Of a DNA stretch of 32,374 nucleotides, positions 21,944 through 32,374 are shown piece after piece (positions within the stretch are counted from its first letter, which is position 1; every line of letters begins with the position of its first letter). The notes under the pieces are model-generated. The model was not told where the DNA came from. It made no database searches and saw nothing but the letters and a program-made list of their open reading frames with translations. The DNA comes from a virus, in IMG/VR virus record IMGVR_UViG_3300037258_000269, positions 1-32,374 of that record; one strand, 5' to 3'. Both the position numbers and the translations under genes were made by a program.

Positions 21944-21975
21944 TCTTGACATCAAGACATCAAGACATCAAGATT
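21944..21975. repeat. Tandem GACATCAA repeats: candidate partition site/operator
   Basis: Three perfect tandem copies of the 8-bp unit GACATCAA occupy 21948-21971, followed by GATT. The array begins with the inverted repeat TCTTGA-CA-TCAAGA (21944-21957). Tandem short repeats upstream of a small ParA and a ribbon-helix-helix gene are the usual arrangement of type Ib centromere/operator sites (ParF-ParG, delta-omega systems). The same 8-bp unit recurs in tandem at 27360-27390. Confidence 0.75.
21946..21974 (+). promoter_or_regulatory. Candidate promoter of the parA operon, overlapping the repeats
   Basis: TTGACA (21946-21951) is perfect; the -10 candidate CAAGAT (21969-21974) after 17 bases is poor but differs by one base from the TAAGAT boxes used elsewhere in this genome. 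The whole spacer consists of GACATCAA repeats, so binding of the ribbon-helix-helix protein would repress transcription, as in autoregulated type Ib partition operons. Confidence 0.5.
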
Positions 21976-22004: not shown

Positions 22005-22631
22005 ATGATCATATCAATACTGAATCAAAAGGGTGGTACCGGCAAAACGACACTAGCAGTTAATATAGCTCGTGAATATACCAAGCGTAAATTTAAAACT
22101 CTTCTTGTTGATTCTGATGCACAGGGCTCAGCATTGCGTTGGCATGAGGAATCAGGGGGAGAATTATTAGACCTCACTTGTTTGCCTGTAACAACTCTTG
22201 ATAAAGACGTCCTTAAATTCAAAGAAATGTATGATCGCATTATTATCGACGGCATACCTAGAATATCCCCATTAACTGTATCTGCTATTAAAGCTTCAGA
22301 TATGGTACTAATCCCGGTACAGCCATCTTTATATGATGTTTGGGCTACGGAGGATTTAGTTCGACTGGTTAAGCATAGGCAAGAACTTACAGAAGGCAAA
22401 CTTAAAGCTGCATTTGTTCTGAGCCGAAGAATTAAGGGTACCCTATTAAGCCAAGAGCTAGCATCTCAATTAAATATTTACGACTTGCCTATATTTTTAT
22501 CCTCAACTTATCAGCGTGTAGAATATGCGAAGGCAATCCAAGAAGGTCGCACAGTTTGTGACATGCTTACAGAGGCATATTTAGAAATAATTGCTATTGT
22601 TAATGAGCTGGAGGAGAAATTAAATGGCTAA
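22005..22631 (+). CDS. parA: ParA-family partition ATPase (type Ib)
   Basis: 208-aa ATPase without an N-terminal DNA-binding domain, the size of type Ib ParA proteins such as ParF. Deviant Walker A KGGTGKTT (residues 9-16, signature Lys9), Walker A' with Asp36 ([14 protein letters not shown]), Walker B IIIDGIP with Asp82, and the [11 protein letters not shown] segment typical of ParF-like proteins. ParA polymers or gradients on the nucleoid move plasmid copies apart, stimulated by the partner at 22624-22830. Eight-base overlap with that partner indicates coupled translation. In a phage it is usually a sign of plasmid-like prophage maintenance. No other replication or division role is indicated. 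Confidence 0.93.
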
Positions 22632-22830
22632 GATTGATTCAGGAATTATTAATATTAGAGAATCCAATAATGCAAGAATGGAAATGCTTTCTTCAAATAA
22701 AGAAACGAAACAATATCCTCTTCGCATTCCCACTCCCCTTTATAAAAAAGTCAAAATTAAATTATTAAGAGAAGATAAAAACCTTCGCGAGGTTATTCTC
22801 GAAATGCTGAATAATTACATCAAGGAATAA
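22624..22830 (+). CDS. Ribbon-helix-helix partition partner (ParG/omega-like)
   Basis: 68 aa, starting eight bases inside parA with GGAGG upstream. A disordered, polar N-terminal tail (1-28) precedes a C-terminal ribbon-helix-helix: strand at about 30-35 (QYPLRI), helix 38-50 ([13 protein letters not shown]), turn, and helix 53-67 ([14 protein letters not shown]). This is the layout of ParG, whose tail stimulates the ParA ATPase while the dimeric fold binds repeated DNA sites and represses the operon. Adjacent GACATCAA arrays are the likely targets. Could alternatively act purely as a repressor. Confidence 0.82.
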
Positions 22831-22857
22831 AGACATCTTGAAATCAAGACATCTTAA
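22831..22857. repeat. Second GACATC/inverted-repeat site after the partition genes
   Basis: Directly after the stop of the ribbon-helix-helix gene: AGACATC, then TCTTGA-AA-TCAAGA (22836-22849), then AGACATCTT. The inverted repeat matches that at 21944-21957 apart from the two central bases. The partition cassette is thus bracketed by the same motif. Confidence 0.65.
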
Positions 22858-27119: not shown

Positions 27120-28166
27120 TCATTTATCAGTTTCCTTATTAAGGATTTTTATAAAATCATCGGCTTGAGACTTTGTAAGCTCTTGTATCTTTTTAATACC
27201 ATAGTGTTTAAGGGCTTGTTCGAAGCGTTCATTCGAAAATCCCTTAACTGCGATTAACATATCGATTTCATCCAGTTGTACTTGTGTTGATACTTCACCT
27301 GTCTCTATAACATCATCAATAGAAGGCGCTCCCTTTGCAGCAGTAAGCTTATCCATCAAGATGTCATGATGTCTTGATGTCTTGACATCAGGCGCGCTGC
27401 CTGTCTCATGCTCTATAAAATCAATATCAAACTCTTCGCTAGCAGAGGCTTTAATGTTCTGGATTCCTGCCTCTTGAAGTTCATCTAATGATACGGCTTT
27501 TTGCATTTCCACAGAGCAGGGGAGCCATTTAAATAATTTTCTAAGCACGGTTTTTTTGGCCATTTCTTCATAGTGTGAAACCCAAGGACCACTATTTTTT
27601 CCCTGAGAACTATCTCGGATTCTGTCTACCTGTTTGCGGCTCATCACTTCCATTTGATGGCCACCGTCTCTTAGATTTGCCACCGCATAAACTGCTACTA
27701 AATCCCCGGGTTCGTTCATAGAAGGCTTATGGATTAGATTTTCTTTTAAACCAAATTCATAACTAAATTCGTCATTAGCATAAACTGCGCGTGAAACTAA
27801 TGAAACAATTTGTCCAGAGCGTCTAGCTAAATCTAAGAACCCTCGATATCCGGGCATGAACTGACATTCATATTTTCCCGCCTTACTGTTATAGAACGGG
27901 ATCAAATAACACGATCCCAATATCCCCGGCTCAAGTCCCAATTGCGAAGCTTGCATAATTGCTGCTATAAAGCTCATAGGGTCGCATTCCTGGAGTTTAG
28001 GTGTTTTCCTAAGTTCAGTTATCGCGATTCGCGCCATACGCTCAGGAGTAAGGTGTTTCGGTAGGCAGCGAGCAATCTCGCTTTTCATTTGCTTTAATAG
28101 TCCGACCACACTTTCTTGATTAGCTGTCATCATATTTTTTTTATCTACAGGTGAAAGATTGCTCAT
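27120..28166 (-). CDS. recT: RecT-family single-strand annealing protein
   Basis: 348 aa. Binds single-stranded DNA and pairs complementary strands with the exonuclease encoded upstream. Residues 1-230 carry the RecT core with family-typical segments: LTPERMARIAITELRKTP (39-56), ASQLGLEPGILGSCYLIPFY (73-92), FMPGYRGFLDLARRSGQI (103-120), and HYEEMAKKTVLRKLFKWLP (198-216). The rest is an acidic linker and a small C-terminal helical region, making it longer than E. coli Rac RecT (269 aa). The linker, around residues 260-269, is encoded by the GACATC repeat array at 27360-27390. Start overlaps the exonuclease stop; GGAG precedes it. Confidence 0.93.
   Translation of the reverse strand: MSNLSPVDKKNMMTANQESVVGLLKQMKSEIARCLPKHLTPERMARIAITELRKTPKLQECDPMSFIAAIMQASQLGLEPGILGSCYLIPFYNSKAGKYECQFMPGYRGFLDLARRSGQIVSLVSRAVYANDEFSYEFGLKENLIHKPSMNEPGDLVAVYAVANLRDGGHQMEVMSRKQVDRIRDSSQGKNSGPWVSHYEEMAKKTVLRKLFKWLPCSVEMQKAVSLDELQEAGIQNIKASASEEFDIDFIEHETGSAPDVKTSRHHDILMDKLTAAKGAPSIDDVIETGEVSTQVQLDEIDMLIAVKGFSNERFEQALKHYGIKKIQELTKSQADDFIKILNKETDK
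27360..27390. repeat. GATGTCTT tandem array inside recT, same motif as the partition site
   Basis: GATGTCAT, GATGTCTT, GATGTCTT follow in tandem (27360-27383) and then GACATCA, giving a perfect inverted repeat TGATGTC-TT-GACATCA (27375-27390). On the minus strand it shares TCAAGACATCAAGACATCA (19 bases) exactly with the array upstream of parA, over 5 kb away. It lies in the variable linker of RecT, where protein sequence is little constrained. Confidence 0.75.
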
Positions 28167-28993
28167 GCTGCCTTCTCCTCATTATTAATAGTTGCAAACT
28201 TAGGAACACCGAGTTCCTGGACTAAATAGCCTTCCCATTTGTTAGAATCTAAGCATGCTTTCAACTTACGCTTATAAGCATTAAATTGCTCTATCCCAAA
28301 CTTTAAAGCCTCTTCTTTCATTATGTAAACAGCAGGAACATGCGGCTCATCTTTTTCACAAGCTAAAATTACAAACATATCAATAGGTTTACCAAGCGAT
28401 TTACATGCCTCAAAAGCCATACCAGCTTGCAGATAATAGCCGTACTCTAATGCACTACGAGAAAAGCTAAATAGGTTTGCGTTGTTCGTTGTTTTTAAAT
28501 CTATTACCATTTTTGATGCCCAAATGTCTGGCCTAGATTTAAATTGCAAACCAGTTTCTTCGTCAGTCCAGAATATGGATTTTTCAAATACAGCATCATT
28601 AAGCAATGTTGAGACAATTTCATGTTTGCTAACAAGCTCTACCATTTTGTTGGTCTTAACAAATTGGTCATCCGTTAAAATAGTCTTGCCTTCGCTAAGC
28701 AACAAAAAATCCTCCCATTGCTCTTTTCCTTTAGTGGTTCTTCTATCTATTTTGGGAGCAACTGCATATTCAGATAAAAATTTTGCAGGCTCTAATAAGA
28801 GAGTATGAAAAGCTGAGCCCACTATCATTGAAGGGGTTGGCTCTTGTTTCTCTGCCAATCCAGACATTGTTTCGTACCAATAATGGTATGGGCTCTTATC
28901 TAACAGCATTAACTTGCTACGCGATACTCCCGAAGAATCGTGATAGGTCTCATTTGTAATATCATAAACGCCATCTTTATAAACTCTAGTCAT
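28163..28993 (-). CDS. RecE-like PD-(D/E)XK exonuclease (exodeoxyribonuclease VIII type)
   Basis: 276 aa from the ATG at 28991-28993, with AAAGGA upstream; the longer ORF to 29044 would begin upstream of the promoter's transcription start. It degrades one strand of duplex DNA to make 3' overhangs for RecT. The catalytic core is visible: GSAFHTLLLEP (59-69), SRPDIWASKMVIDLKTTNNA with Asp156, Asp165 and Lys167, and GYYLQAGMAFEA with Gln189. The size matches the nuclease domain of RecE rather than the 866-aa full-length protein. First gene of the leftward early operon, ATGA-coupled to recT. Confidence 0.88.
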   Translation of the reverse strand: MTRVYKDGVYDITNETYHDSSGVSRSKLMLLDKSPYHYWYETMSGLAEKQEPTPSMIVGSAFHTLLLEPAKFLSEYAVAPKIDRRTTKGKEQWEDFLLLSEGKTILTDDQFVKTNKMVELVSKHEIVSTLLNDAVFEKSIFWTDEETGLQFKSRPDIWASKMVIDLKTTNNANLFSFSRSALEYGYYLQAGMAFEACKSLGKPIDMFVILACEKDEPHVPAVYIMKEEALKFGIEQFNAYKRKLKACLDSNKWEGYLVQELGVPKFATINNEEKAA

Positions 28994-29022
28994 TGTTTTT
29001 CCTTTGTTGTTAATTCTCTTCC

Positions 29023-29051
29023 ATGATATGACATTAATTGTCATATGTCAA
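29023..29051 (-). promoter_or_regulatory. Early leftward promoter with an operator in its spacer
   Basis: Minus strand TTGACA (29046-29051), 17 bases, TATCAT (29023-29028). Between them lies an inverted repeat with arms ATATGACA and TGTCATAT (29026-29033 and 29039-29046) around TTAAT, so a bound dimer would block RNA polymerase. It drives the RecE-RecT operon. Confidence 0.82.
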
Positions 29052-29094
29052 CTATTTGCATACACTCCTCTGTCTTTTAATTTTATGTCAATTC

Positions 29095-29123
29095 TTGTCA
29101 CGCGTCAAAATAATTGCTACATT
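29095..29123 (+). promoter_or_regulatory. Rightward promoter of the Cro-like gene
   Basis: TTGTCA (29095-29100), 17 bases, TACATT (29118-29123), with TGC just before the -10 box (extended -10). Divergent from the promoter at 29023-29051. The region between contains further TGTCA half-sites at 29046, 29086 and 29096, suggesting multiple repressor sites shared by both promoters. Confidence 0.65.
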
Positions 29124-29148
29124 ATGTTCATTTATCAAGGGGGAAATT

Positions 29149-29364
29149 ATGACACCGCAAGATGTTTTGAGAAAATATGGGAGCCAATACAACTTTCATA
29201 AGGCCACCGGAATGGCGCATGGGTCGCTGGGGAATTGGATAAAGTGGGGGTTTGTGCCCGAAACCTCCCAATACAAACTTGAACGTATTACTGATGGTGA
29301 GCTTAAGAGCAATTGGACTATAGAGCAGGAAAAAAGGAAAAAAGAGAATGACCAAAAAAACTAA
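29149..29364 (+). CDS. Cro-like helix-turn-helix regulator, 71 aa
   Basis: Starts at ATG 29149 with GGGGGA a few bases upstream; a longer in-frame reading from 29038 would begin before the promoter. Residues 1-55 resemble the Cro/YdaS type: MTPQDVLRKYG, then helix-turn-helix FHKATGMAHGSLGNWIKWGF (about 15-34), PETSQYKLERITDGEL. The C-terminus is Glu/Lys-rich. A small dimeric repressor acting on the palindrome at 29026-29046 is the natural role. No separate CI-type repressor with a cleavage domain was found, so this gene, or the ribbon-helix-helix protein, may be the main switch. Confidence 0.75.
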   Translation: MTPQDVLRKYGSQYNFHKATGMAHGSLGNWIKWGFVPETSQYKLERITDGELKSNWTIEQEKRKKENDQKN

Positions 29365-30617: not shown

Positions 30618-31460
30618 ATGAGTATAGACGCCATTAACTGGGCATGGAGCCAGGTAGATGTTTCTCCATCAGAAAAATTAATTCTTCTTTCGTACGCGGA
30701 TAGAGCATCCGAATCCATGGAAGCTTGGCCTTCTAAAACGCGTCTTTCCCGAGACACTTGTCTTAGTCATAACACAATTGATAAAGGCCTAAAATCCTTG
30801 ATCGAAAAAGGCAAGATCATAAAGACCGGTTGCGAGAGAAATCAGGTACCCATTTATCGACTAATTGGGGTATCCAAGCGCGAAGATAATCATAAAAACT
30901 TATCCACAGCCCCCCCCAAAATTGGTACCCCCCCCAAAACCCATACCCCCCCCAAAATTGGGGGGAGTACCCCCCCCAAAATTGGGGGGAGTACCCCCCC
31001 CAAAATTGGTACCCAGAACCATAAGAAGAACCCCCAAAGGAATCCAAAGGGAGAAATCCTTACTTTTTCTTCATTTTTTTCTTCAGAAGATTTTTTTAAA
31101 TACGTAAAAGATTTAATAGCGGTCACAAAAAAGAATCCCCTTGAACAATTAACAGAAGAAGTGATTTTTTATGCTGATAAGTCGAAAGGAAAACGGGATC
31201 AAGTTGAATCGGTAAAAATGGCTGTCCATCTCATAAAAAGCGGTCAGTGGAAAACGCCTAATGGTTTTAAGGGAATTACTTCGAAGTCGATAAAAGAAAA
31301 AGAAGAAAAATATGAAATAGAAAAACAAGAGCAGATACAAAAAAATGCGGCAGTCGATAGCAAGGTGGTTAATTTACTTAAAGAAATTGTGGTTAAATCG
31401 CCCCAAATGACTATGGCAGAAAGATTAAAGATTTATAGAGAACAGATAAGTGCTAACTAA
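30618..31460 (+). CDS. Replication initiator, lambda O-like, with internal origin
   Basis: 280 aa. Residues 1-85 form a winged helix-turn-helix (LILLSYADRASESMEAWPSK, then TRLSRDTCLSHNTIDKGLKS and LIEKGKIIKT) of the kind found in phage replication proteins. Residues 97-131 are a repetitive linker of TPPKIG/TPPKIGGST units encoded by GC-rich iterons. The C-terminal half is Lys/Glu-rich and helical and may contact the host helicase loader or DnaB. As in lambda O, the gene contains what looks like its own origin: a DnaA box at 30900-30908 next to the iterons. No helicase loader (P/DnaC-like) gene was recognised next to it. The repeats belong to the coding frame without interruption. Confidence 0.8.
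   Translation: MSIDAINWAWSQVDVSPSEKLILLSYADRASESMEAWPSKTRLSRDTCLSHNTIDKGLKSLIEKGKIIKTGCERNQVPIYRLIGVSKREDNHKNLSTAPPKIGTPPKTHTPPKIGGSTPPKIGGSTPPKIGTQNHKKNPQRNPKGEILTFSSFFSSEDFFKYVKDLIAVTKKNPLEQLTEEVIFYADKSKGKRDQVESVKMAVHLIKSGQWKTPNGFKGITSKSIKEKEEKYEIEKQEQIQKNAAVDSKVVNLLKEIVVKSPQMTMAERLKIYREQISAN
30900..30908 (+). promoter_or_regulatory. Perfect DnaA box
   Basis: TTATCCACA, the high-affinity DnaA binding sequence, one base before the first C-run of the iterons and inside the initiator gene. Its position next to iterons is what plasmid and phage theta origins show; a chance match of nine bases exactly here is unlikely but possible. Confidence 0.75.
30910..31009. repeat. Five iterons, core C8-AAAATTGG: candidate replication origin
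   Basis: C8 runs start at 30910, 30928, 30946, 30970 and 30994, each followed by AAAA. Four copies continue TTGG; the second reads AAAACCCA. Spacing is 18, 18, 24, 24, all multiples of three so the reading frame is kept. Copies three and four are inverted repeats, CCCCCCAA-AA-TTGGGGGG. A T-rich, easily melted stretch follows at 31059-31104. Same layout as the lambda origin within gene O. Confidence 0.82.
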
Positions 31461-31699: not shown

Positions 31700-31897
31700 A
31701 TGCAAAATGGACTTGTAAAGTGGTTTAACGAGGGAAAGGGATTTGGATTTATTTCTTCCGAAGGCAAAGATTATTTTGTTTACTTCAAAGAAATTCAAAC
31801 TGACGGCTTCAAGACGTTGAGGGAAGGACAGAAGGTGCAATTTGTTGCCGGAACATCCCCAAAAGGCGCTTGTGCTAAAGAAGTAAAGGTTCTTTAA
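31700..31897 (+). CDS. Cold-shock domain protein (CspA-like)
   Basis: 65 aa, the length of bacterial CspA proteins; binds single-stranded RNA or DNA through a five-stranded OB-fold and can melt RNA structure. Both RNA-binding motifs are visible: RNP1 KGFGFI (residues 13-18) and RNP2 YFVYF (25-29), where the usual histidine of VFVHF is tyrosine. The start [16 protein letters not shown] is typical of the family. RBS is weak (ATAGG). Last rightward gene, ending before a shared terminator; could aid translation of phage messages or act as an antiterminator, as CspA-family proteins can. Confidence 0.92.
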
Positions 31898-32237: not shown

Positions 32238-32374
32238 CTACCTCTCAATTTTCTCATAAAGTTTTAGATATCTACGGCAAAAACCTGCTAGACTCTCCGC
32301 CGCGAATGGATGGATACACTTTTCGATAATTTGTTCCCCGCCTTCGTTTTCTACTTCAAGGATGAACCCGAAGC
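32238..32374 (-). CDS. C-terminal part of the junction-spanning 94-aa gene
   Basis: Second copy of the 3' portion of the gene at 1-278, with its true stop (TAG complementary to 32238-32240). It reads on beyond the window end into sequence present only at the left end. The one base that differs from the left copy (32355) is silent. Not a separate gene. Confidence 0.85.
   Translation of the reverse strand, partial: FGFILEVENEGGEQIIEKCIHPFAAESLAGFCRRYLKLYEKIER
32245..32374. repeat. Terminal direct repeat, right copy
   Basis: Repeats 1-130 with a single C/T difference at 32355. Removing one copy gives a circle of 32,244 bp. Confidence 0.93.

Follow-up and report, generated by a model that had tools for sequence, protein, structure and literature searches.

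The par locus and its flanking arrays

The window, by which we mean the whole 32,374-nucleotide stretch of viral DNA analysed, carries a two-gene partition (par) operon with an array of short repeats on either side, and a further array of matching repeats inside recT (Table 1). Its two ends repeat each other directly, so that the record probably represents a closed circle of ~32.2 kb. As expected of a type Ib partition locus, parA encodes a short ParA-family ATPase, and a small ribbon-helix-helix (RHH) gene lies directly 3′ of it. The parA product matches Pfam AAA_31 and CbiA as well as the ParA-like PHROG 164, and its closest solved structure in the PDB is ParF (E 2.7e-21). The RHH protein falls with the Arc-like repressors in PHROG; its family profile gave a weak match to omega of pSM19035 (E 0.01).

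Table 1. Positions of the par and recombination genes, the repeat arrays and other repeated sequences in the window
Feature	Position	Strand	Remarks
Terminal direct repeat	1-130 and 32245-32374		130 bp, 99% identical
parA-upstream array	21948-21969	+	three perfect GACATC units
parA	22005-22631	+	208 aa; ParF/type Ib ATPase, N-terminal P-loop, no N-terminal HTH domain
RHH gene	22624-22830	+	68 aa; overlaps parA; putative centromere-binding protein; recognition strand KQYPLRIP
Downstream par array	22832-22853	+	directly after the RHH stop codon, before a hairpin
recT	27120-28166	-	348 aa; Pfam RecT, E 5.5e-58, residues 42-233
recT array	27360-27389	-	four GAYRTC units, one every 8 bp, within recT
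Units of the recT array (plus-strand positions)	27360-27365, 27368-27373, 27376-27381, 27384-27389		last unit inverted relative to the other three
Exonuclease VIII-like gene	28163-29044	-	upstream of recT; PHROG 412 exonuclease VIII, E 2e-70
Inverted GACATTAATTGTC-type and TTGTCACGCGTCAA-type sequences	29020-29150		lie between exonuclease and P22 Cro-like genes
Tandem repeats in the replication initiator gene	30910-31015		four to five repeats of 18/24 bp

A TTGACA hexamer beginning at 21946 runs into the start of the parA-upstream array and is retained by most relatives, irrespective of repeat class; by analogy with other RHH systems, this would fit an operator on the par promoter (PMC9499535, PMC7308502). 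The downstream array, which the earlier note on this DNA had overlooked, agrees with three GAYRTC units at 17 of 18 positions and is present in most relatives.

We compared 19 par loci, namely that of the window, 16 found by search, the locus of relative G001 (L160), and L121. In the sequence ahead of parA, mean self-match peaks at a lag of 8 (0.54, compared to 0.20-0.37 at other lags). The 8-bp period is conserved across the par arrays, and the class of the repeat tracks the recognition strand of the RHH protein: arrays of the GAYRTC type accompany strands ending in LRIP (15-18 of 18 in front of parA), and those of the TATATTTA type accompany FNIP, LNIP, LKIP, and LKMP strands. In one locus (L093), the array is found only downstream. 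Since class and strand vary together in this way, we consider the par repeats very likely to be the binding sites of the RHH protein, and as such they are candidates. The strands YPLRIP, YTLRIP, YLFNIP, and YTLKIP, which vary with repeat class, form a natural recognition series (window, L084-L100, L121, L160), and this family of par loci opens the RHH recognition code to direct tests, whatever the recT array does.

Relatives by capsid are common (144 loci found; L195-L274), and the par module among them is patchy. In 49 of the 50 larger capsid-relative records tested, this parA had no match, and the sole match (G076) was marginal (E 7.5e-4, part of a 784-aa frame). The 50 capsid-related records that lack this parA, 1.23 Mb in all, contain a single three-unit match, with two mismatches, and no three-unit array with fewer than two. 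Together with the match of strand and class, this scarcity strongly, if indirectly, ties the repeats to the par system and to reading by the RHH protein. Among 14 other IMG/VR records with GACATC arrays that were checked, only L121 carries this parA, and there an array stands behind the RHH gene exactly as in the window; the remaining records appear unrelated. A peptide-pattern search for the RHH protein in viral contigs returned no match.

Four repeat units inside recT

Together with the exonuclease VIII-like gene, recT forms one minus-strand recombination operon; the best match of recT in cultured genomes has 59% identity. The stretch of recT that holds the array encodes DVKTSRHHDIL; it follows the RecT core and precedes a C-terminal module. 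The final ~85-100 residues of this RecT (LMDKLxAAKG...RF..AL.HY...QADDFI..LN; window 27120-27420) recur, at 37-52% identity, in annealing proteins of related phages with other cores, which appear Bet-like (L275-L277, L279) or of another kind (L278). The C-terminal segment looks like a portable module, to judge from these proteins, with the array at its start.

Read on the minus strand from 27391 to 27358, the sequence is CTGATGTCAAGACATCAAGACATCATGACATCTT. Its units are GATGTCAA, GACATCAA, and GACATCAT plus GACATCTT in an 8-bp register; on that strand, the hexamers of 27360-27389 run GATGTC, GACATC, GACATC, GACATC, separated by AA, AA, and AT, so that three are direct and one is inverted, in perfect register. 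Both in sequence and in spacing, these units match the par arrays. One recT octamer is exactly GACATCAA, and the other direct units depart from it at one and two positions; of the four exact copies of this octamer in the window, three belong to the parA array and one to recT. The earlier note had reported a 19-base exact identity on the opposite strand, and this holds: the longest identity between the two arrays is TCAAGACATCAAGACATCA, found at 21952-21970 on the parA side and reverse-complemented at 27367-27385 in recT.

Its further claim of a partition-type array in recT also proved real when the sites were scored. Against (GACATCAA)x3, the parA array reaches 24/24, the recT array 21/24, and the array at 22832 19/24, and the maximum was 18 both in 200 simulated (Markov) genomes and in 257 kb of real DNA of relatives away from their par loci. 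Against GAYRTC x4 at 8-bp spacing, recT reaches 24/24, the parA array 22/24, and the downstream array 20/24, with a maximum of 19/24 in the simulated genomes; the GAYRTC motif was written after the site had been seen, and thus the 21/24 against (GACATCAA)x3 is the fair, unbiased figure. Of the three arrays, only that in recT has four perfect GAYRTC units in a row, and no second such site was found across 10 genomes. The genome-wide chance expectation for a site of this type is far below one.

Single GACATCAA octamers with at most one mismatch are not clearly enriched in the window (39 found, compared to 30 ± 5 expected), so that the signal is the array and not the octamer. Two of the one-mismatch matches come from the inverted GACATTAATTGTC-type and TTGTCACGCGTCAA-type sequences, which are likely operators of the Cro-like protein and contain no 8-bp arrays. 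Elsewhere in the window, the tandem repeats in the replication initiator gene consist of CCCCCCCCAAAATTGG units, encode PPKIG, and are possibly an iteron-like element in coding DNA.

Origin of the recT array

The recT linker was compared with those of orthologues L004-L008 and L010 and of the fragments L015 and L016. With the exception of L007, which has a longer linker, all give a gap-free alignment with the window, and across the linker the relatives keep most of K-P-S-R-x-H-D-x-L-M-D-K-L. The array is absent from all six full-length orthologues with this linker and from both fragments; six relatives scored at the site reach only 13-15/24, and no array is conserved at that place. Compared to the majority of the relatives, the window differs at 12 positions of the array, of which 10 improve it, 2 are neutral, and none worsens it. 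Because the alignment is gap free and the differences are point changes only, these linkers indicate that the array arose in place by substitution and was not copied, contrary to the earlier view of it as a copy or a recombination product.

Relatives that keep the amino acids and lack the DNA repeat are the pattern that the earlier note had named as speaking against a site. This does remove a conserved role; what stays is a lineage-specific site, with 10 of the 12 changes directed toward the array. Three relatives (G001-G003) have the same class of par repeat as the window, yet the recT array is missing from them, and for this reason we regard the array, on present comparisons, as lineage specific, with no conserved function seen. 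The linker is more constrained than the earlier description of it as permissive and variable implies: relatives keep K-x-SR-x-HD-x-LMDKL, and the module from LMDKL onward is common to other annealing proteins.

The array is known from one genome, and the nearest recT sequence has ~78% protein identity; a search for a close relative spanning recT found none. No match to recT or parA came from record L195/G041 (20.9 kb), whose major capsid is identical to that of the window. In G001-G003, a weak third site (at 31784, 33451, and 34907; 15-17/18) was rejected as a coincidence at a stop/start overlap because it is conserved about like its flanks (pairwise, 19, 21, and 22 of 24 positions, compared to 78-88% in the flanks).

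Possible roles and comparison with known systems

In our reading, the point mutations in this segment of recT created an RHH site, on whose four contiguous, partly inverted 8-bp units RHH dimers would sit side by side, as on the arrays flanking parA-rhh. The resulting complex would be an auxiliary centromere for ParA to pull, 5.4 kb from the main one. Since the recT units are as good as or better than those at par, an RHH protein that binds the par arrays should bind here as well; the earlier suggestion that the recT array is an RHH site is therefore plausible, and we consider binding rather likely. In pSM19035, full activation of ParA takes a run of four repeats or more, all direct or of mixed orientation, and orientation is of little importance (PMC9499535). 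In the phage, only the recT array offers four perfect units, which makes an auxiliary centromere the function with the best support. With two arrays already at the par operon, the third need not be used, and we would place a contribution to partition slightly below even odds. For the reading as a whole, a genuine extra RHH site that arose by point mutation and acts as an auxiliary centromere, we estimate a probability of roughly 0.45. The array probably represents a spare site to which the partition protein would bind, acquired by point mutation in this one lineage. That the most complete array of the genome would be a second functional centromere, evolved by point mutation in a gene of the recombination operon, seems rather unlikely.

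The array could also be gratuitous, mutations in a partly free linker having given a match that the RHH protein perhaps occupies without consequence. Its absence from all relatives is consistent with this, and the conserved S-R-x-H-D already favors TCAAGACA and CATGA, with two relatives (L010, L016) standing at 15/24 without any array. Of synonymous recodings of the window's own linker, 0.4% score 21/24 or higher, and rare matches will surface when many genomes are scanned. However, recoding of the relatives' linkers never reached 21/24, and in a linker model with the conserved residues fixed and the rest drawn from genome codon usage, the maximum against GAYRTC x4 was 21/24, with none of 200,000 draws scoring 22 or more. 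Chance as the origin of the array is strained by these draws, by a genome-wide expectation so far below one, and by the 1.23 Mb of par-less relatives without an array of such quality, and we regard mere coincidence as unlikely, though it deserves serious weight.

A regulatory role is less probable still. An RHH complex within recT might slow RNA polymerase and lower expression of the 3′ end of recT and of later genes in lysogeny, tying recombination functions to the partition protein of the prophage. The array does lie within the recombination operon, after the exonuclease gene, and RHH partition proteins are known to regulate several promoters via their sites (PMC9499535). Against such a roadblock or operator, no sigma-70-like promoter was found overlapping the recT site, in contrast to the TTGACA at the start of the parA array; the site is ~0.8 kb into recT; and relatives with the same operon lack it. 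Recombination that copied part of the parA array into recT would account for the 19-nt identity on the opposite strand, but we consider it very improbable: the linker aligns without gaps between conserved flanking amino acids, resemblance to the parA flank ends with the repeat, the fourth unit has the opposite orientation, and AT and TT take the place of AA at the ends of two direct units.

An auxiliary centromere in recT, if bound and used, would be an RHH-type partition array in a phage coding sequence, produced by substitutions of use to a protein and a DNA site at once. Such a case would illustrate the birth of extra centromeres on small replicons, an intragenic centromere caught early, and would bear on whether lytic or recombination genes come within the reach of partition proteins.

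Among known systems, ParF-ParG-parH of plasmid TP228 (type Ib) likewise has a short HTH-less ParA followed by a small RHH protein. The phage differs in having one GAYRTC unit per 8 bp, arrays on both sides of the operon, and a third array in a coding sequence 5.4 kb away, and in an RHH profile that matched omega, not ParG. Omega of pSM19035 is also the closest solved RHH protein to that of the phage (E 0.01). As presented in the part of PMC9499535 considered here, delta/omega-parS shares with the phage its short tandem repeats, direct or inverted, and its several arrays per replicon, overlapping promoters, whereas its repeats are 7-bp WATCACW units, 7-10 per site, in promoter regions; no parS in a coding sequence is described in that part of the source. 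SegAB of the Sulfolobales pairs a ParA-family SegA with the RHH protein SegB, over 80% of whose sites are inside genes (PMC12284271), although these are 13-bp palindromes scattered on a chromosome, unlike the 8-bp arrays on the phage. In repABC replicons, extra parS sites occur in coding genes (such as cas), and de novo origin and selection have been argued for them (PMC9040568); there, RepB belongs to another protein class and the site is one 16-bp palindrome, not an array. One can envision that the recT array, a ParF/RHH-type array within a phage gene, may work like these intragenic repABC and SegB sites.
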